From positions 1 through 64,000 of the forward strand of contig JAFDXL010000007.1 of NCBI GenBank assembly GCA_018267955.1: 64,000 nt of DNA, in the 5' to 3' direction. Under the pieces are notes generated by a model that was given only the letters and a program-made list of their open reading frames with translations, was not told where the DNA came from and ran no database searches. The DNA comes from Bacteroidota bacterium. GTDB taxonomy: Bacteria; Bacteroidota; Bacteroidia; Chitinophagales; Chitinophagaceae. Within the stretch, counting starts at the first letter, position 1. Each line of letters opens with the position of its first letter. Below are positions 34,731 through 54,586 of this stretch, in pieces. The position numbers were made by a program, and so were the translations under genes.

Positions 34731-36950
34731 TTAGTTAGCATATTCACTCATGAATTTAATGCGCATCATCTGCAACTGTTCTATCGTCACATCGCGGTCT
34801 TTAAATTCTTCATACGCACTGTCTAATGTATCATCGTGGCTGGATCGGAAGAAGTCAAAAATATCTTCCTGTTCATATTCATCCAGTTCCTGCTCCAGGC
34901 AATAGTCAAGGTTCAGCCTGGTACCACTTGCCACGATGGTTTCCATTTCTATCAGCAGATCTTGCAGCGTCAGGTCCTTATTACGTGCTATGGTCTCCAG
35001 CGGTATTTTTTTATCAATATTCTGGATGATAAAGACTTTCATGCCGCTTTTATTTACCACGCTTTTCATCACAAAATCATCCGGCTTGGTAATGTCATTC
35101 TCCTCTACGTATTTGGCTATCAGGTCTATGAACTTCCTGCCGTAACGCACCGCTTTACCCTTACTTACGCCTTGTATCTTTTCCAGCTCTTCCATCGTTG
35201 TAGGATAGTTGATGGACATATCTTCCAGCGAATTTTCCAGGAATATTACAAAAGGCGGCAGGCCTTTTTCTTTCGCTACCTGTTTGCGCAGGCTTTTCAG
35301 CATTTCAAACAGCTGCATATCTACTGCTGCCGGGCCGCCACCGCCCGATACTTCTTCATCATCACCATCCGCATCTTCATAATTATGGTTCAATACTACC
35401 ATAATAGAGAATGGCTTTTTCAGGAACTTATGTCCTTTTTCGGTGATCTTCAACAGTCCATACTCTTCAATGTCTTTACGCACCAGGCCTTCCAGCATCA
35501 TCTGGCGTATCAGCGAGAACCAGAAGTTATCTTCCATGTTCATGATACGGCCCGAACCGAAAGACTTCAGCTTATCATGACGGAATGTTTTGATCTGCGG
35601 GTTGCTCTTACCTTGTATGATGTTTACAACGTAGTCTATATTAAAGCGTTCATCCAGTTCATTGATAGTGTCCAGTACTATCTTCGAACTGTCGCGCACT
35701 TCCAGTTTTTCTTTAGGGTTCAGGCAGTTGTCGCAGTTACCGCAGTTGTCTTGTTTCAGCTCTTCTCCAAAATAGTAGAGCAGCAGTTTTCTGCGGCATA
35801 CGCCACTCTCTGCATACGCAACTGTTTCAGATATCAGCTGTGCGCCCATTTCGCGTTCGCTCAATGGCTTATCGCGCATCAGGTGCTCCAGCTTTTGCAC
35901 ATCTTTATGAGAGTAGTAGAGAATGCATTTGCCTTCCAGCCCATCGCGTCCTGCACGTCCTGTTTCCTGGTAATAATTTTCCAGAGATTTAGGTATGTTA
36001 TAATGTATTACAAAACGCACATCCGGTTTGTCAATGCCCATACCAAAGGCTATCGTTGCCACGATCACATCTACATCTTCCATCAAAAACTGATCCTGCC
36101 TCTGCGCACGCACACCTGCATCCAGGCCTGCATGGTAAGCAACTGCAGATATGCCGTTTGCCTGCAATGTGCTGGCCAGCTCTTCCGTGGTTTTGCGGTT
36201 CAGTGTATAGATGATACCACTCTTACCCTTCATGCTGTGTATGAACTTCACGATGCTTTTCAGTACACTTTCCTTCTTGCCTTTGGGCATTATTTCATAA
36301 TACAGGTTAGGCCTGTTGAAGGAATCTATGAATATCTCCGGTTTGCGAAGCGATAAGTTCTTCACTATATCATCCTGCACTTTAGGGGTAGCTGTCGCTG
36401 TCAATGCAATGATAGGGAGGTTGGGGTTGATCTCATCTATCATATCGCGCAGCTTGCGATATTCAGGACGAAAATCGTGTCCCCATTCAGATATACAGTG
36501 TGCCTCGTCTACAGCAATAAAAGATATATTGATGTCTGAGAAGAAAGCAATATTTTCCTGTTTGGTAAGTGTTTCCGGTGCCACGTACAGCATCTTGGTA
36601 TGCCCGTCCACAAGGTCGGCTTTTACCTTTTTTTGCTGTGCTTTTGTCAGGGTCGAGTTCAGGAAGTGTGCGATATGGTCCTTCGAGCTATAGCCACGTA
36701 TCAGGTCCACCTGGTTTTTCATCAGGGCTATCAGCGGAGATACGATGATAGCTACGCCTTCACTCAGTAATGCGGGTAATTGATAGCAAAGTGATTTACC
36801 ACCGCCTGTAGGCATGATTACGAACGTATCCTTGCCCGATAATATGCTTGAAATTATTTTTTCCTGTTGTCCTTTGAAATTTTCAAATCCAAAATGCTCC
36901 TGTAGCGCACTCTTTAAGTTCACTTTCGTCTTAGATGTAACGGCAGCCAT
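34731..36950 (-). CDS. recQ: RecQ family ATP-dependent DNA helicase
   Basis: A 739-residue 3'-5' DNA helicase. Motif I is GGGKSLCYQLPA, motif II is DEAHCISEWGHDFRPEYR, and motif VI is ETGRAGRDG. The zinc-binding domain contains CRRKLLLYYFGE and CGNCDNC. A winged-helix region follows, then an HRDC domain (about 560-635, with PPFVIFLENSLEDM and LEKIQGVSKGKA), and a C-terminal extension of ~100 acidic residues. RecQ unwinds recombination intermediates and stalled forks. It has a long shadow ORF on the opposite strand. About 165 bp precede it without another gene. Confidence 0.96.
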   Translation of the reverse strand: MAAVTSKTKVNLKSALQEHFGFENFKGQQEKIISSILSGKDTFVIMPTGGGKSLCYQLPALLSEGVAIIVSPLIALMKNQVDLIRGYSSKDHIAHFLNSTLTKAQQKKVKADLVDGHTKMLYVAPETLTKQENIAFFSDINISFIAVDEAHCISEWGHDFRPEYRKLRDMIDEINPNLPIIALTATATPKVQDDIVKNLSLRKPEIFIDSFNRPNLYYEIMPKGKKESVLKSIVKFIHSMKGKSGIIYTLNRKTTEELASTLQANGISAVAYHAGLDAGVRAQRQDQFLMEDVDVIVATIAFGMGIDKPDVRFVIHYNIPKSLENYYQETGRAGRDGLEGKCILYYSHKDVQKLEHLMRDKPLSEREMGAQLISETVAYAESGVCRRKLLLYYFGEELKQDNCGNCDNCLNPKEKLEVRDSSKIVLDTINELDERFNIDYVVNIIQGKSNPQIKTFRHDKLKSFGSGRIMNMEDNFWFSLIRQMMLEGLVRKDIEEYGLLKITEKGHKFLKKPFSIMVVLNHNYEDADGDDEEVSGGGGPAAVDMQLFEMLKSLRKQVAKEKGLPPFVIFLENSLEDMSINYPTTMEELEKIQGVSKGKAVRYGRKFIDLIAKYVEENDITKPDDFVMKSVVNKSGMKVFIIQNIDKKIPLETIARNKDLTLQDLLIEMETIVASGTRLNLDYCLEQELDEYEQEDIFDFFRSSHDDTLDSAYEEFKDRDVTIEQLQMMRIKFMSEYAN

Positions 36951-37115: not shown

Positions 37116-37610
37116 TCACAGTTGTAAGTCTTTCAGTTTTGTAACAGGCAATGGATCAGTGCATTCTGCTAAAAGTGCACTGATGTCTTTTTTTATTTTG
37201 GGGTGTATTAACTTAGGGTTAATATCGCTTAACGGCTGCAAAACAAATCGCCGCTCCTGCAGATAAGGGTGGGGAATCACAAGATTTGGGCTATTAACGA
37301 TAGCGTCACCATAGAAAAGGATGTCAATATCTATTGTTCTCTGGCCCCATTTTTCTGTTCGGTGCCGTCCAAGTTCCTGCTCCGTTTCCAGTATGGCATT
37401 TAATAATTGCTCAGCCGGTAAGCCGGTATTGATCTCTGCCGCTATATTGTAAAAGTCGGGTTGGTCAGTTTTACCCCATGCTGCTGTTTGGTAAATGGGT
37501 GAAACTTTTTCTACTATGCCAGCTTTCTGCGCCAGTATCGTTAAAGCCCTGTTTAAATATTCCGTTCTGTCTCCCTTGTTACTGCCAAGAGAAAGGTATG
37601 CTGTTGTCAT
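37116..37610 (-). CDS. folK: 2-amino-4-hydroxy-6-hydroxymethyldihydropteridine pyrophosphokinase
   Basis: A 164-residue HPPK enzyme for folate synthesis, transferring pyrophosphate from ATP to 6-hydroxymethyl-dihydropterin. Clear motifs are SLGSNKGDR at the start and RTIDIDILFYGD, holding the magnesium-binding Asp pair, then VIPHPYLQERRFVLQPL. It starts 2 bp after the methyltransferase stop, so it is the last gene of a three-gene operon. Other folate genes are not in the window. Confidence 0.96.
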   Translation of the reverse strand: MTTAYLSLGSNKGDRTEYLNRALTILAQKAGIVEKVSPIYQTAAWGKTDQPDFYNIAAEINTGLPAEQLLNAILETEQELGRHRTEKWGQRTIDIDILFYGDAIVNSPNLVIPHPYLQERRFVLQPLSDINPKLIHPKIKKDISALLAECTDPLPVTKLKDLQL

Positions 37611-47188: not shown

Positions 47189-48439
47189 GTGCAGCTTTTC
47201 TTTTATAACATATTTCTCGCTCTATACACGTTTGGCATCCGTGTCACCGCCTTGTTCAATAAAAAAGCAAAGCAGTGGCTGGCTGGCAGAAAGAATATCC
47301 TGCGCATAGCAAAAGAAAAGCTGGGAGATAGTAAAGAGCAGCGGATATGGGTTCATTGTTCTTCTTTGGGTGAGTTCGAGCAGGGGCGGCCTTTGATCGA
47401 AGCCATCAAAAAGCAATATCCCGCTTATAAGATCGTGCTTACTTTCTTCTCTCCCTCCGGCTATGAGGTCCGTAAGGATTATAAGTACGCTGATTATGTC
47501 TTTTACCTGCCAATGGATGGCCGCAAAACTGCCGAAGAATTTATAGGCATGGTCAATCCTAAGCTGGCCATATTCGTTAAGTACGAGTTTTGGCATTATT
47601 ATCTCGATCAGCTCCGTAAAAGGGATATACCAACCGTACTGGTCTCCGCAGCTTTCCGCCCGTCCCAGGCATTCTTTAAATGGCATGGAGGGCTTTTCCG
47701 CAATATGCTGCAATGTTTCACACTCATTTTTGTGCAGGATGTAGAATCAAAAAGGTTGTTGCAAACAATAGGCATAGATGACAACGTATTGCTTTCAGGA
47801 GATACCCGTTACGATCGCGTTTCTGAAATAGCCGAGATAGCTAAGAAGTTTCCTTTAATAGAAAAGTTTAAAGGCAAAGATTGCTTGCTGATAGCCGGTA
47901 GTACCTGGCCCGATGACGAGAAATTGCTGAAAAAGATACTACCCACACTCCCCGATGATTGGGGGCTTATTATAGCGCCGCACGAGATCAATCGCAACCA
48001 CATAGAATATCTGCAGAATCTTTTTGAGAGCCACTGTGTGTTATATTCAGAGCTTTCTACGGAACCCACAGGTTTTAGAGTTCTGATTATAGACAATATC
48101 GGGATGCTTTCAAGCCTATACAGTTATGGTGAAATTGCATATATAGGGGGTGGTTTTCAGAAAGGAGGCATCCATAACGTGCTGGAACCTGCTGTTTTTG
48201 GTTTGCCGGTATTTTTTGGCCCGCGGTACGATAAGTTTATTGAGGCCAAAGCCCTTGTTTCTCACCAATTCGCATTCCCGGTATCAAATGTTACGGAATT
48301 TAACAATTTGTTGCAGCAGCTCATTCATGATGAGATTCACCTGGAAGCATTGCAAAAGTCAATACGAGCCTACGTTTCATCGCAGGTAGGGGCCGCCGAT
48401 AAAATAATGCAGGAGCTATCCGCCCGGTGGCTCCGCTAG
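47189..48439 (+). CDS. waaA: Kdo transferase WaaA
   Basis: A 416-residue membrane-anchored glycosyltransferase (GT30) that attaches Kdo, or here probably Kdo8N, from its CMP form to lipid A. The N-terminus has one hydrophobic segment (FFYNIFLALYTFGIRVTALF). WVHCSSLGEFEQGRPLIE includes the catalytic Glu region. GSTWPDDEKLL and YIGGGFQKGGIHNVLEPAVFGLPVFFGP are the nucleotide-binding and C-terminal Kdo motifs. The start is GTG (47189). It is the first gene of the Kdo/Kdo8N operon. Confidence 0.95.
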   Translation: MQLFFYNIFLALYTFGIRVTALFNKKAKQWLAGRKNILRIAKEKLGDSKEQRIWVHCSSLGEFEQGRPLIEAIKKQYPAYKIVLTFFSPSGYEVRKDYKYADYVFYLPMDGRKTAEEFIGMVNPKLAIFVKYEFWHYYLDQLRKRDIPTVLVSAAFRPSQAFFKWHGGLFRNMLQCFTLIFVQDVESKRLLQTIGIDDNVLLSGDTRYDRVSEIAEIAKKFPLIEKFKGKDCLLIAGSTWPDDEKLLKKILPTLPDDWGLIIAPHEINRNHIEYLQNLFESHCVLYSELSTEPTGFRVLIIDNIGMLSSLYSYGEIAYIGGGFQKGGIHNVLEPAVFGLPVFFGPRYDKFIEAKALVSHQFAFPVSNVTEFNNLLQQLIHDEIHLEALQKSIRAYVSSQVGAADKIMQELSARWLR

Positions 48440-48500: not shown

Positions 48501-49709
48501 ATGCCAGGTACAGAACTATTTGGTGCAGAAGAGAGGAAAGAGGTGAATGATGTATTGGAGACAGGTATCCTGTTTCGTTACGGCCATGACGCACAGCGCA
48601 ATGGCCATTGGAAGGCCCGCGAATTCGAGGAAGAAGTTAAGAAAATAACAGGCGCTAAATATGCACATGCCATGAGCAGTGGTTCTACAGCAGTAGCTAC
48701 CGCATTGGCTGCTGCAGGCATCGGTACCGGCGACGAGGTGATCGTTCCGCCTTTTACCTTCATCGCCACTATAGAAGCTGTACTTTTTGTAGGTGCTTTA
48801 CCTGTATTTGCAGAGGTAGATGAAACACTTTGCCTCAGTGCGGAGGGTATTAAAAAAGCGATCACTCCAAAGACCAAAGGTGTATGCCTGGTGCACATGT
48901 GCGGCGGTATGGCAGAGATGGATAGCATCATGCAGGTAGTAAAAGAGCATAACCTTATTTTGGTAGAGGACGCGGGCCAGGCTTTCGCATCTTCTTATAA
49001 AGGTGTTTCAACAGGCTTGTTTGGTAAGGCAGGTAGCTACTCTTTCGACTTCTTTAAGATAGCAACTGCCGGCGAAGGCGGTGTACTGGTTACCAATGAT
49101 GAAGAAACTTATAACAAAGCTGATTATTATTCCGACCACGGCCACAGCCATATTGGCGCTAAACGCGGTATGGAGCAGCACCCTATATTAGGCTTCAACT
49201 ATCGTATCGGTGAGCTCAACGCTGCGGTAGGCCTGGCGCAGACAAGGCGTGTTCCGCATATCCGGGAGGTAAACAGGAAGTATAAAAAAATGCTGACTGA
49301 ATTGTTGTCACAAACGCCGGGTATTGGCTTTGCAACAATCGCTGACCCCGATGGTGATTCTGCTACCTTCCTGAATATATTGATGGAAACCCCCGAAGCT
49401 GCACAACGCACAGTAGATGAAATGAACAATGCAGGTGTTGCCGGCTTCGACTATTGGTATAAGAACATGTATCACTTCATCAATCAGTGGGATCATATCA
49501 AAGAGATGCGCACAGCATCTAAGCTGGCTGTGGAAGTGCTCGGTACACCGCAGGATTATGCAAACCTGCAGCTGCCTGTAACGCAGAACGTCATTGGCCG
49601 CCTGATATCTTTCGGCATCCGCTGCACATGGACAGAAGAGCAAGTGCGCGACCTGGCTGCTAAGATCTCTGATTGTGTAAAAAAAGCATTAGCAACTGCA
49701 CATGCATAA
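48501..49709 (+). CDS. kdnA: 8-amino-3,8-dideoxy-octulosonate transaminase KdnA
   Basis: A 402-residue DegT/DnrJ-type PLP aminotransferase. It starts with MPGTELFGAEE and has the FRYGHD, GDEVIVPPFTFIATIEA, DETLCLSAEGI, VHMCGGMAEMD and DHGHSHIG features of KdnA, which I recognise from Shewanella. It aminates the C8 aldehyde made by KdnB using glutamate. The PLP Lys is K186 (SFDFFKIATAGEGG) and D157 (VEDAGQ) binds the PLP nitrogen. The His that usually follows in sugar aminotransferases is Gln here. The start of kdnB overlaps its end by 8 nt. A generic sugar aminotransferase is the alternative, but the context rules strongly for KdnA. Confidence 0.9.
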   Translation: MPGTELFGAEERKEVNDVLETGILFRYGHDAQRNGHWKAREFEEEVKKITGAKYAHAMSSGSTAVATALAAAGIGTGDEVIVPPFTFIATIEAVLFVGALPVFAEVDETLCLSAEGIKKAITPKTKGVCLVHMCGGMAEMDSIMQVVKEHNLILVEDAGQAFASSYKGVSTGLFGKAGSYSFDFFKIATAGEGGVLVTNDEETYNKADYYSDHGHSHIGAKRGMEQHPILGFNYRIGELNAAVGLAQTRRVPHIREVNRKYKKMLTELLSQTPGIGFATIADPDGDSATFLNILMETPEAAQRTVDEMNNAGVAGFDYWYKNMYHFINQWDHIKEMRTASKLAVEVLGTPQDYANLQLPVTQNVIGRLISFGIRCTWTEEQVRDLAAKISDCVKKALATAHA

Positions 49710-50781
49710 GAATTTTAAGAACATAGAAAAAGTAGTGTACGGACGCGGAGCGTTCAGCACTATGGAGAGCATATTAGAGCCGGTAAGGAAGGAAAACGAT
49801 CACTTTATAGTTTATCTTATCGATAACTATTTTATAGATAGTGATCTTTCAAAGCGCTTAAATGCCCAACCCGGTGACGTAATTAAGTTCATTGATGTAG
49901 AGCCTTCTGAGCCAACTACGGATCAGATCGACAATCTCCGTGATGAGATACTGGGCGATAAGGGTTTGCCTTCAGGCGTGGTAGGTATCGGTGGTGGCAG
50001 CATCATGGATATTGCCAAAGCCTTATCCCTGATGTTTACTAACGAGGGTTCGTCTACTTTGTACCAGGGGCTTAATCTTATTAAAAAGCCGGGTATTTAT
50101 CACCTTGGCGTTCCTACCATTTCAGGTACAGGGGCAGAGGTGTCTATGACTGCTGTGCTTACCGGGCCTGAGAAGAAGCTGGGACTTAAATGCGACTGGA
50201 CGGTTTTCAACCAGGTGATCCTTGATCCCGAACTGATTGCATCTGTGCCAAGAGACAAATGGTTCTACACCGGTATGGATACCTATATCCATTGTATAGA
50301 ATCTGAAAATGGTATCCTCAACAATGCGTTTAGTCATGCGTATGCCGAGCAGTCATTAAAGCTTTGTCGCGATATATTCTTGGGCGATGTTGCTGGTCAA
50401 ACTGCAGAGAATGATGATAAGCTGATGGTGGCTTCCCTGATGGGCGGTCTTAGCCTCACTTATTCAGAAGTAGGTGTTTGCCATGCGTTGTCTTATGGGC
50501 TTTCGAAGATACTCGGCGAAAAGCATTGCTATGCAAACTGTGTAGCCTTCCAGCACCTGGAAGATTATTATCCGCAAGGCGTTGCAGAATTTAAGACAAT
50601 GCTGAAGAAGCATGATGTAACCCTTCCGCAGGGCCTTAGCAAAGATTGGAGCGATGCAACGGTAACCGCAATGGCACAGGTGGCGTACAATCTCACGCAC
50701 ATGTGGAACCACGCTATTGGTACCGATTGGAAAGACAAAATAACTTTAGATACAATAAAAGCGCTGTATAGGCGCATGTAA
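49702..50781 (+). CDS. kdnB: 3-deoxy-octulosonate 8-oxidase KdnB
   Basis: A 359-residue iron-type (group III) alcohol dehydrogenase family protein that oxidises Kdo at C8 to the aldehyde used by KdnA. GIGGGSIMDIAKALS (about 94-108) is the nucleotide-binding region. Metal ligands are visible in TGMDTYIHCIES, VGVCHALSYGLSK and GEKHCYANC. The start overlaps the kdnA stop (ATGCATAA, 8 nt), a translational coupling that supports a joint function. It starts the part of the operon with kdsA, which begins 2 nt after its stop. Confidence 0.9.
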   Translation: MHKNFKNIEKVVYGRGAFSTMESILEPVRKENDHFIVYLIDNYFIDSDLSKRLNAQPGDVIKFIDVEPSEPTTDQIDNLRDEILGDKGLPSGVVGIGGGSIMDIAKALSLMFTNEGSSTLYQGLNLIKKPGIYHLGVPTISGTGAEVSMTAVLTGPEKKLGLKCDWTVFNQVILDPELIASVPRDKWFYTGMDTYIHCIESENGILNNAFSHAYAEQSLKLCRDIFLGDVAGQTAENDDKLMVASLMGGLSLTYSEVGVCHALSYGLSKILGEKHCYANCVAFQHLEDYYPQGVAEFKTMLKKHDVTLPQGLSKDWSDATVTAMAQVAYNLTHMWNHAIGTDWKDKITLDTIKALYRRM

Positions 50782-50783
50782 TT

Positions 50784-51617
50784 ATGAGCGCAAAAAAAAT
50801 AGCAGTAGGTAATATTAGCTGCGGTGCCGACGAATTGTTCCTCATCTCCGGCCCTTGTGTTATAGAGGACGAAACTGTGATGATGAAGACGGCTGAAATG
50901 CTGAAAGAGGTCAGCAGTCGCCTGAATATTCCTGTGATCTACAAATCTTCTTTTTCTAAAGATAACCGCAGCAGTCTTAAGTATTATGATGGCCCGGGTC
51001 TTGATAAAGGAGTAAAAATGCTGGCTAAGGTCAAGGAACAATTTGGTTTCCCGGTACTTACAGATATTCATTATCCAGACCAGGCAGCGCCTGCAGCTGA
51101 GGTCTGCGATGTGTTGCAGATACCTGCGTATCTATGTATGCAATCCGGCTTGTTAAAAGCTGCTGCTGCAACAGGCAAAGTGATCAACATAAAACATGGC
51201 CAGTTCCTTGCTCCTGAGAATATGAAGCACCCCGTGGGCAAATGTGTGGATGCTGGCAATGACAAGATCATACTTACAGAGCGTGGTTATACGATGGGCT
51301 ATAACGACCTTGTGGTGGATCCTCGTAGTTTTTATCATATGAACCAGCTGGGTTATCCTGTTGTGTTCGATATCACGCATTCCATCCGTAAATATGGCAT
51401 CCCAAGTGCAGATGCAAAGGGTGGTGCCCGCGAGTTCCTTCCGGTATTAGGTAGGGCAGGGGTTGCAGCCGGCGTAGATGGTGTATTTATAGAAACACAC
51501 CCTGAGCCAGAAAAAGCGCTCTGCGATGCCGCCAGCCAGCTTTGTGTATACGACCTGGAAGAATATTTAAAACCATTGATCGAGATACATAATTTGGAAG
51601 TCAAATACCGTAATTAA
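50784..51617 (+). CDS. kdsA: 3-deoxy-8-phosphooctulonate synthase, metal-dependent type
   Basis: A 277-residue KdsA that condenses arabinose 5-phosphate and PEP into Kdo 8-phosphate. The motif ISGPCVIEDE has Cys at residue 25, the ligand of metal-dependent class II enzymes, where E. coli-type enzymes have Asn. KSSFSKDNRSS, TDIHYPDQA and the metal-binding HPE (ETHPEPEKA) and D residues also fit. It needs arabinose 5-phosphate, whose usual maker KdsD is not in the operon. It starts 2 nt after kdnB. Confidence 0.95.
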   Translation: MSAKKIAVGNISCGADELFLISGPCVIEDETVMMKTAEMLKEVSSRLNIPVIYKSSFSKDNRSSLKYYDGPGLDKGVKMLAKVKEQFGFPVLTDIHYPDQAAPAAEVCDVLQIPAYLCMQSGLLKAAAATGKVINIKHGQFLAPENMKHPVGKCVDAGNDKIILTERGYTMGYNDLVVDPRSFYHMNQLGYPVVFDITHSIRKYGIPSADAKGGAREFLPVLGRAGVAAGVDGVFIETHPEPEKALCDAASQLCVYDLEEYLKPLIEIHNLEVKYRN

Positions 51618-51633
51618 ATTCCAATCCCTAATT

Positions 51634-52104
51634 TCTAAATCCTAATTGATGGAAAATAAGGTTTATGATTTAGAGAAAAGGACATGGTTGTTTGCTCTTA
51701 ATGTCAGGCAGTTTGTAAAGAAACTGCAGCTTACAATTCCTAACAGGGAAGATATAAAGCAAGTGGTTCGGAGTTCAGGATCAATTGGCGCAAATTATAT
51801 CGAAGCCAATGAATCTTTAGGGGATAAGGATTTTTTGATGAAGATTAAGATATGCCGAAAAGAAGCAAAAGAAACCGCATATTGGTTGTCTCTGATAGAT
51901 ATGGAAGAAGCTTTAGCTAATGAAAGGAATGGGTTGACTCAGGAAGCGACAGAATTAAGGAAGATATTCGGTGCAATTTTGACTAAATCACAGGCAAAAT
52001 TGAACTTAGACAAATAAAAATTACTCTATTTCAGATTTTGTTTAGAATTTAGCGTCGAATTTCAAAATACAGGGATTTTAAAAATTCTGATATTAGGATT
52101 TAGA
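51634..52104. repeat. 13-bp inverted repeats bracketing the four-helix gene
   Basis: TCTAAATCCTAAT at 51634-51646 and its exact reverse complement ATTAGGATTTAGA at 52092-52104. They lie on both sides of the gene at 51649 in an AT-rich region that does not look like the rest of the operon. The two copies can pair in RNA to put the gene on a loop. Similar flanks surround other genes of this family inserted in operons, so the unit may be a mobile cassette. The region 52018-52133 has no gene but repeats variants of the motif. Confidence 0.75.
51649..52017 (+). CDS. Four-helix bundle (S23/IVS) protein
   Basis: A 122-residue all-helical protein of the 23S rRNA intervening-sequence (PF05635) family: LEKRTWLFALNVRQFVKKLQ, VRSSGSIGANYIEANESL and KICRKEAKETAYWLSLID are typical. 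In Leptospira and others such ORFs sit in 23S rRNA insertions. In Bacteroidota, copies are scattered in chromosomes. I use ATG 51649; the TTG at 51646 overlaps the repeat. It splits kdsA from the transaldolase gene and is bordered by inverted repeats, so I think it is an insertion, not part of the Kdo pathway. Function unknown. Confidence 0.85.
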   Translation: MENKVYDLEKRTWLFALNVRQFVKKLQLTIPNREDIKQVVRSSGSIGANYIEANESLGDKDFLMKIKICRKEAKETAYWLSLIDMEEALANERNGLTQEATELRKIFGAILTKSQAKLNLDK

Positions 52105-52133: not shown

Positions 52134-53144
52134 ATGGAATTATACTTGGATTCTGCCAATCTCAAAGAGATTGAAGAAGGATTTAAACTGGGTTTCCTGG
52201 ATGGTCTTACCACCACACCCACTTTTATGCAACGCGAAGGCATTACCGATATAGATGGCACTATCGTGCAATTGTCTAAAATGGTGCCAGTATTGCAGAT
52301 TGAAGCATTGGGCAATACTGCCGAAGATGTATTAAAAGAAGCACACCGCCAGCTAAACCTGGGTCTTGATCCTAAAAGGACAGTATTTAAAATACCTGTT
52401 TCGCTGGAAGGTGTTCGCGCTTGTAACCTGTTGCGCAAAGAAGGTTTGCTGGTGAATGTACACCTGGTGTACACACTGCAACAGGCTTATATGGCTATGC
52501 ACGCCGGTGCTACTTATGTATGCCCGCTGGTTGGCCGCCTGCAGGATCAGGGACACGATGCCCTGGCGCTGGTAGAGCAGTGTGTAGATGCTGTTGAAAC
52601 TTACGGTTACGATACCAAAATAATGTTCAGTTCTGTGCGTCATGCAGAGCACGTACGTAATGCCATTAACATAGGCGTACACACTATTACCGTACCGCTG
52701 AAAGTATTGAAAGGACTTACTGAAAATAACTTTACCACTGTAGGTACAGATCAGTTCCTTGCTGATACACGCTTAATGACCGTAAGGGTTAGAGAAGCAG
52801 CAAACGGCGTTAACCCGGTGGTAAATGCAGACGATACCCTGCAAAATGCATTAGTAAAAATGACCGGTTATGGCTTCGGCGCCGTAACGGTTGTGAACGG
52901 TGATGGCTCTGTAAAAGGTGTGTTTACGGATGGCGATATCCGCAGGCTGCTGCAAAAAGACGGCGAGCATATCCTGGGCAAGAAAATGGGCGAAATGGAA
53001 TATAAAACGCCTATCACGGTAGATGCAAATGCACTGCTGAATGATGCAGCGGTTATCTTCAAGAAAACAAGTGTAGATACCATCCTGATTACGGAAGACG
53101 GCAAACCGGTAGGTATGCTGGATATCCAGGATATTAAAGGTTAA
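52134..53144 (+). CDS. Transaldolase/FSA-type domain fused to a CBS pair, KdsD substitute
   Basis: A 336-residue fusion of a fructose-6-phosphate-aldolase/transaldolase-type TIM barrel (about 1-215) and two CBS domains (about 220-336). The Schiff-base Lys is K86 (VFKIPVS), and Asp6 (LYLDS) is kept. The usual GVTTNPS is GLTTTPT, so the Asn is Thr, and the Tyr and Asn of FSA's YVNR are replaced (PLVGR). The CBS part contains GVFTDGDIRRLLQ, the same as in KdsD. KdsD is a SIS domain plus two CBS domains; here the SIS domain is swapped. I infer a role in making arabinose 5-phosphate, for example by aldol addition of glycolaldehyde to glyceraldehyde 3-phosphate, which FSA enzymes can do, or a regulatory variant. 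Other substrates are possible. No SIS-type kdsD is found in the window. Confidence 0.85.
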   Translation: MELYLDSANLKEIEEGFKLGFLDGLTTTPTFMQREGITDIDGTIVQLSKMVPVLQIEALGNTAEDVLKEAHRQLNLGLDPKRTVFKIPVSLEGVRACNLLRKEGLLVNVHLVYTLQQAYMAMHAGATYVCPLVGRLQDQGHDALALVEQCVDAVETYGYDTKIMFSSVRHAEHVRNAINIGVHTITVPLKVLKGLTENNFTTVGTDQFLADTRLMTVRVREAANGVNPVVNADDTLQNALVKMTGYGFGAVTVVNGDGSVKGVFTDGDIRRLLQKDGEHILGKKMGEMEYKTPITVDANALLNDAAVIFKKTSVDTILITEDGKPVGMLDIQDIKG

Positions 53145-53148
53145 TACC

Positions 53149-53838
53149 ATGACTGAAATTATCAGCCATTTTAAAGGAATATTTGTGACAGAGCCTTTGC
53201 AATTACAGCAGAGGCTCTCGCATATTAAAGCATACGTGTTCGACTGGGATGGTGTGTTCAATAACGGTATGAAGGACGAGCATGGTTCCAGTCCTTTCAG
53301 CGAAGTAGACTCGATGGGCACTAACTTGTTGCGCTATAATTTCTACTTGCAGCAGAAAAACATACCTGTAGTAGCAGTTATTTCGGGCGAGCAGAACAAA
53401 GCGGCGAATGCACTCGCTACCCGTGAGCGGTTTCATTCTGTGTACGGAGGTGTTAAGTACAAAGCAGATGCGCTTGCGCATTTATGTAGCACTTTCGATC
53501 TTCATCCGTCAGAGGTAGCTTTCGTATTTGATGATGTGCTCGATTTTTCCATTGCATCACAATGTGGGGTACGCATCATGGTGCCGCGCGCCTGCAATCC
53601 TTTACTTATTGAGTTTGCGATACAGCGCAATATGGTAGATTATCTCACTGCCTGCGAAGGCGGTAATGGTGCCGTGCGCGAAGCTACAGAACTCATATGC
53701 GGCCTTTCCGGTATGTACTCCGAGGCGTTGCGCAATCGTATGGACTATACAGATTCATACAAAGAATACTTGTCTGTAAGGCAGCAATGCGTTACTCATT
53801 TTTACACCGCGAGAGACGGTAAAATCACCCAGTTATAA
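53149..53838 (+). CDS. kdsC: KdsC-like HAD phosphatase, extended
   Basis: A 229-residue HAD phosphatase. The nucleophile and acid are D32 and D34 (FDWDGVFNNG), S79 is in ISGE, K105 is in VKYKADAL, and D128/D129 are in FVFDDVLDFSI. GGNGAVREATELI is the KdsC signature. KdsC hydrolyses Kdo 8-phosphate to Kdo. It is longer than usual (about 170-190 residues), with an extra N-terminal ~25 residues and a C-terminal ~40, and the usual GDD reads FDD. Context makes Kdo-8-P the obvious substrate. It starts 4 nt after the fusion gene and 4 nt before kdsB. Confidence 0.85.
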   Translation: MTEIISHFKGIFVTEPLQLQQRLSHIKAYVFDWDGVFNNGMKDEHGSSPFSEVDSMGTNLLRYNFYLQQKNIPVVAVISGEQNKAANALATRERFHSVYGGVKYKADALAHLCSTFDLHPSEVAFVFDDVLDFSIASQCGVRIMVPRACNPLLIEFAIQRNMVDYLTACEGGNGAVREATELICGLSGMYSEALRNRMDYTDSYKEYLSVRQQCVTHFYTARDGKITQL

Positions 53839-53842
53839 ATTT

Positions 53843-54586
53843 ATGATAGTTGGTATTATACCTGCACGTTATGCTTCCACCCGTTTTCCGGGTAAGCCAT
53901 TGATTGAGATTCGTGGTAAGTCGATGATACAGCGTGTGTACGAACAAGCATCTAAATCTTCGTCGCTCGGTAAAGTGGTGGTGGCAACAGATGATGAGCG
54001 CATCAAAGAACACGTGCTGGCTTTTGGTGGTCATGTGGTGATGACTGCAGAAGAGCATCCAAGCGGCACCGACCGTTGCTGGGATGCGCTGCAGCAAATA
54101 GAAGGCAAATACGATTACGTGATCAATATACAGGGCGATGAACCTTTTATCGATCCATCACAGATAGATACCCTGGCTGCTGTTCTTAAAGATGGTACAA
54201 CAGAACTGGCCACACTGATCATTCCTGTTGATAATCACGAAGTATTGTTTGACATGGGCGAAGTAAAGGTGGTGCTAAACGACAATATGGAAGGGATGTA
54301 TTTCAGTCGTATGGTCATCCCATACATCAAAGGTGTGCCGCAGGAAAGCTGGCATCAGCACCACGATTATTATCGACATGTAGGTATGTATGCTTATCGT
54401 ACCGATGTGCTCGAAAAGCTCACTTCATTACCTGTTTCCTCTCTTGAAAAAGCAGAATCCTTAGAGCAACTTCGCTGGCTGCAAAAGGGCTTTAAGATCA
54501 AATGTGCGATCACTCAGTTTGATAGCCACTGTATTGATACACCTGAAGATGTAGAAAAGGTGCTGCGACTAATGAATATCGGGTAG
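53843..54586 (+). CDS. kdsB: CMP-Kdo (or CMP-Kdo8N) synthetase
   Basis: A 247-residue cytidylyltransferase that activates Kdo or Kdo8N with CTP. Start IIPARYASTRFPGKPL, then HPSGTDRCWDAL and INIQGDEPFIDP are the CTP and Kdo binding motifs. In Shewanella the KdsB paired with KdnAB prefers Kdo8N, so the same may apply here. It is the last gene of the operon, and its end overlaps the convergent gene at 54569 by 18 bp. No terminator is visible. Confidence 0.95.
   Translation: MIVGIIPARYASTRFPGKPLIEIRGKSMIQRVYEQASKSSSLGKVVVATDDERIKEHVLAFGGHVVMTAEEHPSGTDRCWDALQQIEGKYDYVINIQGDEPFIDPSQIDTLAAVLKDGTTELATLIIPVDNHEVLFDMGEVKVVLNDNMEGMYFSRMVIPYIKGVPQESWHQHHDYYRHVGMYAYRTDVLEKLTSLPVSSLEKAESLEQLRWLQKGFKIKCAITQFDSHCIDTPEDVEKVLRLMNIG

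Follow-up and report, generated by a model that had tools for sequence, protein, structure and literature searches.

Most Gram-negative bacteria require Kdo. Among the enzyme steps that lead from ribulose 5-phosphate to Kdo transfer, the formation of arabinose 5-phosphate (A5P) is attributed to SIS-type isomerases (KdsD, GutQ, and KpsF). As reported in PMC10448790, E. coli lacking both kdsD and gutQ is not viable. Bacteria that carry kdsA but lack kdsD should therefore have a replacement, if Kdo is equally important to them. E. coli FSA enzymes are reported to make A5P from glycolaldehyde and glyceraldehyde 3-phosphate (PMC6298115, PMC9947464); since PMC9947464 describes this for both FsaA and FsaB, the transaldolase/FSA fold is capable of making A5P. 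In the literature that we searched (most subscription papers lay outside the search), we found no paper joining a transaldolase, a CBS domain, and A5P, and none joining CMP-Kdo with a CBS domain.

A transaldolase-CBS fusion in a Kdo operon

We analysed a 64,000-nucleotide stretch of contig JAFDXL010000007.1, hereafter the window, from a Bacteroidota bacterium of the family Chitinophagaceae. Its forward strand carries an operon with the order waaA-kdnA-kdnB-kdsA-[small ORF]-fusion-kdsC-kdsB. Pfam and NCBIfam profiles identify the Kdo transferase gene waaA (kdtA; 47189-48439, +), while kdsA (50784-51617, +), encoding Kdo-8-phosphate synthase, the consumer of A5P, scores above the TIGR01362 equivalog cut-off. 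A profile match also identifies kdsB (53843-54586, +), for a CMP-Kdo (or CMP-8-amino-Kdo) synthetase; the kdsC-like HAD phosphatase gene (53149-53838, +; E 2.3e-17) falls below its equivalog cut-off. Since kdnA (48501-49709, +; a DegT aminotransferase) and kdnB (49702-50781, +; an iron alcohol dehydrogenase) match the 8-amino-3,8-dideoxy-Kdo transaminase 5k8b (E 7.8e-129) and the Kdo 8-oxidase 5k8c (E 4.3e-121), respectively, we read this as a Kdo operon with an 8-amino-Kdo branch. From ribulose 5-phosphate to Kdo transfer, KdsD is the sole enzyme missing from the window's operon.

The fusion gene (52134-53144, +) is open over 336 aa, with zero internal stops. Pfam assigns aa 3-201 to TAL_FSA (E 2.9e-34), with two CBS stretches behind it (E 1.5e-16), and finds no SIS domain in the protein, bearing out the initial annotation of a KdsD-type CBS pair on a transaldolase barrel in place of the SIS domain. 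The TalC-type (beta/alpha)8 barrel spans aa 1-213 (52134-52772, +), and the CBS pair, a putative feedback sensor akin to the one in KdsD, spans aa 228-334 (52815-53135, +). Among solved structures, the barrel is closest in sequence to TalC-type transaldolases (1vpx, 3r8r). An AlphaFold2 model built with 62 aligned sequences (mean pLDDT 91.8, pTM 0.71) likewise retrieves TalC-type transaldolases as the top Foldseek matches in the PDB, with TM-scores by target of 0.87-0.93 for the 1vpx chains. Relatives comprise 84 full-length loci at 70-100% identity, two of which are one record, and one further locus at 60%. Differences at codon positions 1, 2, and 3 (0.17/0.08/0.53) indicate purifying selection. 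This confirms that the fusion is real and not a chance arrangement.

The fusion had been placed between kdsA and kdsC. It is followed immediately by kdsC, but a small ORF (51646-52017, +) intervenes on the kdsA side. Profile matches assign this ORF to the four-helix-bundle family of 23S rRNA intervening sequences, and it is probably a passenger. The gap takes passengers elsewhere too: 3 loci have the four-helix ORF, and 11 have a putatively PIN-like ORF of 137 aa immediately ahead of the fusion (e.g. L081:9563-9976).

We compared the window's proteins by blastp with the best 80 fusion loci from a collection of named organisms (78-100% identity). Matches were found to kdsC in 61 loci, kdsB in 57, kdsA in 50, kdnA and kdnB in 43 each, waaA in 23, and the four-helix ORF in 3; for the Kdo genes these counts are lower bounds, as some loci end at contig ends. 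KpsF was found by blastp in none of the 80. The initial annotation had suggested mapping the neighbours of transaldolase-CBS proteins across Bacteroidota. At least one of kdsA, kdsB, and kdsC accompanies the fusion in 71 of the 80 loci. The remaining nine (L111, L112, L118, L133, L134, L135, L140, L145, and L147) show no recognised Kdo gene; the L112 locus is 3.2 kb long. The gene after the fusion is kdsC in 58 of 79 parsed loci, and the commonest non-Kdo neighbour family occurs in 13 of the 79.

Several features of these loci merit separate mention. The kdsC-like gene diverges fast, with a mean distance of 0.51 over 60 loci in which the fusion stands at 0.20; the mean for kdsA is 0.15 over 48 loci. 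A putative phosphoglycerate kinase gene lies directly ahead of the fusion at L134 (8712-9905), L135, and L140, which are among the loci without recognised Kdo genes. Titles assign 78 of the 80 loci to Bacteroidota groups, the others being labelled 'bacterium' (L142) and Azovibrio (L077). L077 comes from a MAG labelled Azovibrio restrictus. It has the same Kdo operon (63-96% identity) and probably reflects the misbinning of a contig from Bacteroidota. Lineages with kdnA and kdnB probably make 8-amino-Kdo. A strict tie between the fusion and 8-amino-Kdo synthesis is disfavoured, as kdnAB was recognised in only 43 of the 80 loci.

KdsD is missing from the window's genome

The assembly (4.18 Mb in 10 contigs, 98.15% complete) was searched for a full-length SIS-type kdsD, the discovery of which would have spoken against the initial annotation; none was found. 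The KpsF/KdsD profile TIGR00393 gave three matches genome-wide, all to its CBS half and all under the cut-off. Three proteins have a SIS domain (PF01380), one with a score under the Pfam cut-off. NCBIfam identifies two of the SIS proteins, above cut-off, as GlmS and a bifunctional phosphoglucose/phosphomannose isomerase, and the third is nearest to sedoheptulose 7-phosphate isomerase (GmhA; TIGR00441, 202.9 bits, below the cut-off of 209.45). On these identities, and with no KpsF match to the GmhA-like protein, we reject the idea that kdsD is hidden as another SIS gene. In the window, tblastn with KdsD at E 1e-3 found no kdsD remnant besides the CBS part of the fusion itself. The genome also encodes an ordinary TalC (C10:928699-929313; 255.6 bits, above the TIGR00875 cut-off).

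The fusion and KpsF rarely occur together

We scored KpsF and KdsA (E <= 1e-40) in a draw of 345 genomes from the phylum. KpsF was present in 243 and KdsA in 251, and the full-length fusion in five (G000, G091, G146, G190, and G292; 70-100% identity); the further matches listed are at most 39% identical and all end by residue 250. Among kdsA-bearing genomes, KpsF was found in none of the 5 carriers of the fusion versus 242 of the 246 non-carriers (Fisher p 1.6e-8, for genomes that are not independent of one another). The same contrast was seen in 22 chosen genomes, comprising the five carriers, further genomes of the phylum draw that belong to the same family or order, and three of the class (0/5 versus 17/17). 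One genome (G114) has KpsF without KdsA.

Besides the five carriers, four genomes with KdsA lack KpsF (G023, G200, G268, and G284). Since these lack the fusion as well, a missing kdsD does not require it, and a further source of A5P may exist. G023 is listed as 100% complete.

Genome-wide searches of 50 of the 80 named carriers, picked mainly for longer contigs, extend this pattern. KpsF (E <= 1e-30) is missing from 48 of the 50, although single absences may be assembly gaps, and KdsA is above its cut-off in 49. The KpsF-less carriers include a complete chromosome, that of Chitinophagaceae bacterium LGM1 (CP075895.1; L070/G346). One carrier (L136/G386) is G091 again, with the same fusion DNA, and another (L069/G345) is closely similar to the genome of the window. 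In two carriers, G359 and G372, a gene confirmed as KpsF was found alongside the fusion. In G359 (L089; L149), a MAG, the sole KpsF found lies on a 17-kb contig of differing composition (GC 44.2 versus 51.1%; tetranucleotide r 0.75, compared with 0.95 inside the fusion locus), and this contig may have been misbinned. The KpsF contig of G372 is native in composition (r 0.96), so this genome seems to hold both.

A recQ locus without kdsD

Of 17 KpsF-bearing relatives, 15 have kdsD next to recQ in divergent orientation, and 9 show the order recQ-kdsD-manC whole within the short loci compared; manC is mannose-1-phosphate guanylyltransferase-like, with TIGR01479 as its best match, under the cut-off. 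recQ is kept in all six fusion genomes searched, including the window's (34731-36950, -), where no kdsD lies beside it. In three of the six (G091, G146, and G292) recQ and manC are direct neighbours without kdsD, and in the other three recQ has different neighbours, folK being that in the window. No kdsD remnant was detected by tblastn (E 1e-3) at the six recQ loci, nor at the tatC loci of five fusion genomes. We suggest that kdsD once stood beside recQ and was then lost. The window's folK (37116-37610, -; above the TIGR01498 cut-off) lies upstream of recQ, at the place that kdsD takes in relatives. Folate synthesis releases glycolaldehyde, but any link to the fusion would be conjecture.

The fusion is present in 9 of 298 genomes of the order, and fusion-less genomes exist within the same genus as carriers (G575 versus G000; G518 and G534 versus G091; G508 versus G597). 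The fusion of G146, from outside the order, is nearer to the window's (77% identity) than is that of G292 from the same family (73%), which suggests horizontal transfer. Its divergence tracks that of kdsA, kdsB, kdsC, kdnA, kdnB, and waaA (r 0.59-0.88 over 22-60 loci), as expected from common descent of the operon.

The barrel keeps its catalytic set and rebuilds its sugar pocket

To define which barrel residues are particular to the fusion, we aligned it with ordinary TalC proteins from across the phylum (26 loci taken, namely the best fusion matches plus the genome's own, of which 25 were parsed). D6, T26, T27, T28, E57, K86, N108, H110, C130, L132, R135, S166, S167, and R169 are invariant across 84 fusion loci (80 plus four), and the most distant fusion (G528, 60% identity) has identical active-site residues, bringing the count to 85 of 85. 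Ordinary TalC has the same D6, T26, T27, E57, K86, N108, R135, S167, and R169 in 25 of 25, but N28, S55, T110, S130, F132, and A166, each likewise in 25 of 25. The changes fixed in the fusions are thus N28 to T, T110 to H, S130 to C, and F132 to L, plus Q55 and S166. K86 (codon 52389-52391, +) aligns with Lys86 of the Thermoplasma acidophilum transaldolase, the residue named in the title of 3s1w (Lys86Ala) and the position of the Schiff-base lysine. The title of 4xz9 gives Glu60 and Phe132 of the same enzyme as altered for mechanistic work; these align with E57 and L132 of the fusion. At position 110 (codon 52461-52463, +), all 85 fusion loci have His and all 25 TalC have Thr.

Retention of the catalytic Lys and alteration of the Asn of GVTTNP, both stated in the initial annotation, hold in all 85 loci. 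Of the Tyr and Asn changes that it read in YVNR, the first corresponds to the real F132 to L exchange, but the second falls away: G134 is normal, being Gly in 25 of 25 TalC. As the nearest relatives are TalC and not FSA, the Asn is not a change of this lineage. The exchanges at T110 and S130, along with Q55 and S166, had gone unlisted.

Together, the invariant Lys, Glu, and Arg and the fixed changes at positions 28, 110, 130, and 132 point to kept Schiff-base and phosphate-binding machinery around a rebuilt sugar pocket. In transaldolases the Asn28/Ser130 pair holds the C1-hydroxyl of the ketose; pocket roles are also assigned to TalB Asn35, Ser176, and Thr156. FSA Ala129, which going by the title of Castillo 2010 (cited in PMC6298115) reportedly influences dihydroxyacetone affinity, presumably occupies the column of C130.

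Proposed role and reaction

The initial annotation proposed an alternative source of A5P in place of the missing KdsD, and the distribution of KpsF, the position in the operon, and the kdsD-less recQ locus strongly support it. We consider A5P very probably the product of the fusion, and it is probable, if a little less firmly so, that the protein is a non-orthologous replacement of KdsD that supplies A5P to KdsA.

Under the mechanism that we propose, a TalC-type barrel would have been remodelled and joined to a KdsD-related CBS pair. The phosphate of the substrate would sit at the kept Arg135/Arg169 site, and the carbon bound by Lys86 as a Schiff base would be C1 of an aldopentose 5-phosphate, not C2 of a ketose. 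Chain length is consistent with this, since with the phosphate held as in fructose 6-phosphate the lysine would reach C1 of a pentose 5-phosphate, and loss of Asn28 and Ser130 fits an aldose instead of a ketose. Glu57 and the new His110 would serve as acid-base groups, and the net reaction would be the aldol addition of glycolaldehyde to glyceraldehyde 3-phosphate, giving A5P, which the initial annotation had offered as its example. Such an aldolase is the single most likely chemistry, though we favour it tentatively. Against it, Leu132, in 85 of 85 fusion loci, takes the place of FSA Tyr131, which we take to be catalytic and to share its column. Its weak point is the supply of glycolaldehyde, for which we recognised no source among the genes of the operon.

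Isomerisation and 2-epimerisation are close seconds, each unlikely when taken singly. An isomerase would interconvert ribulose 5-phosphate and A5P without a Schiff base, with Glu57 as the base and His110 and Lys86 as electrophiles, a mechanism like that of triose-phosphate isomerase. Substrate and product would be those of the missing KdsD, so that no new metabolite is needed, and a pocket His is indeed invariant beside Glu and Lys in all 85 fusion loci while present in none of the 25 TalC. However, the whole Schiff-base set (Lys86, Glu57, Asp6, and Asn108) is kept although it would be superfluous to an isomerase, which is the weak point of this reading, and we know of no isomerase in the transaldolase barrel family.

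A ribose 5-phosphate 2-epimerase would instead use the Lys86 Schiff base at C1, with Glu57 and His110 working on opposite faces of C2 to yield A5P. We know of no natural enzyme of this kind, but the proposal accounts together for the kept Lys and Glu, the new His, and the lost contacts to the ketose C1-hydroxyl. The engineered relative TalB F178Y is reported in PMC9947464 to yield both A5P and ribose 5-phosphate, suggesting that the scaffold tolerates both configurations at C2.

It is improbable that the fusion makes some other aldose or regulates the pathway, with KdsA and the later enzymes, together with KdnA/KdnB, using a modified substrate. The kdnA and kdnB genes of 8-amino-Kdo synthesis accompany the fusion in 43 of 80 loci and would fit this idea, but 37 of the 80 show no kdnAB, some of them ending at contig ends. 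Furthermore, 49 of the 50 fusion genomes have a KdsA that scores above the cut-off for Kdo-8-phosphate synthase, and the KDNRSS motif, which we take to mark users of A5P, is found in 46 of 50 related KdsA and was not found in 4. Least probable of all is an ordinary CBS-regulated transaldolase with A5P coming from an unrecognised enzyme elsewhere. In its favour, the barrel is clearly of the TalC fold, and four kdsA-bearing genomes have neither KpsF nor the fusion. Against it, four pocket residues that are constant in 25 of 25 TalC are changed and fixed, the genome already has a plain TalC above the TIGR00875 cut-off, and the fusion goes with Kdo genes and a missing kdsD. For the first two of these reasons, a transaldolase with a stray domain is likewise disfavoured.

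The CBS pair is akin to that of KdsD

Among solved structures, the CBS part of the fusion is best matched by 4o9k, which is named arabinose 5-phosphate isomerase. By blastp, the pair matches the best KpsF at 3e-17 and the best other CBS protein at 6e-7. Phylogenetic analysis of 46 CBS pairs places the 19 rows from fusions with the 17 from KpsF and separates both from the remaining 10 (95/76), in a tree whose bootstrap is unsettled and which holds one very long row. Since the KpsF rows form a group of their own (91/53), this indicates kinship with the fusion's CBS pair and not descent of that pair from KdsD. Residues at positions 268 and 271 of the fusion are variable across 84 loci. Two KdsD CBS structures, 4o9k and 3k2v, are reported to have been solved with CMP-Kdo. 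The ligand is probably CMP-Kdo or CMP-8-amino-Kdo, and by sensing it the CBS pair would throttle the enzyme.

Comparison with known systems

We incline, if only slightly, to the full statement that a natural A5P aldolase or Schiff-base ribose-5-phosphate 2-epimerase, built on a transaldolase barrel and under CBS feedback, has displaced KdsD across several Bacteroidota families. If true, a second and unrelated route to A5P would fill a gap in annotation, with Kdo made without a SIS-type isomerase, and an enzyme would have been replaced while its type of regulatory domain was kept on a new catalytic domain. The T28/H110/C130/L132 pattern would let databases separate the fusion proteins from plain transaldolases. 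An A5P aldolase would also be a natural catalyst of the kind sought by pathway engineers; in its discussion, PMC9947464 describes the glycolaldehyde affinity of FsaA as insufficient and an alternative Ara5P aldolase as wanted.

TalC-type transaldolases (TIGR00875; 1vpx, 3r8r, 3s0c) have the same barrel as the fusion, which is 31-39% identical to 13 TalC of the phylum, and share with it Lys86, Glu57 (60 in T. acidophilum), Asp6, Asn108, Arg135, Ser167, and Arg169. The fusion differs in its Thr, His, Cys, and Leu at positions 28, 110, 130, and 132, in its extra CBS pair, and in its usual company of Kdo genes, and it scores 162.6 bits on TIGR00875, under the equivalog cut-off of 245.95. E. coli FSA (fructose-6-phosphate aldolase, 1l6w) also has this fold. 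However, its Tyr131, Gln59, and Ala129 presumably correspond to Leu, Glu, and Cys in the fusion, and A5P formation is, to our knowledge, no natural role of FSA.

KdsD, KpsF, and GutQ (TIGR00393) have a CBS pair related to that of the fusion, and among kdsA-bearing genomes their distribution and that of the fusion are nearly mutually exclusive. Unlike them, the fusion has no SIS domain; it matches TIGR00393 over positions 133-267 only, at 48.2 bits against a cut-off of 203.7. KdnA and KdnB (5k8b and 5k8c, which we take to be from Shewanella) have relatives in the fusion operon, here together with the fusion and without kdsD. The fusion also occurs where kdnAB was not recognised.
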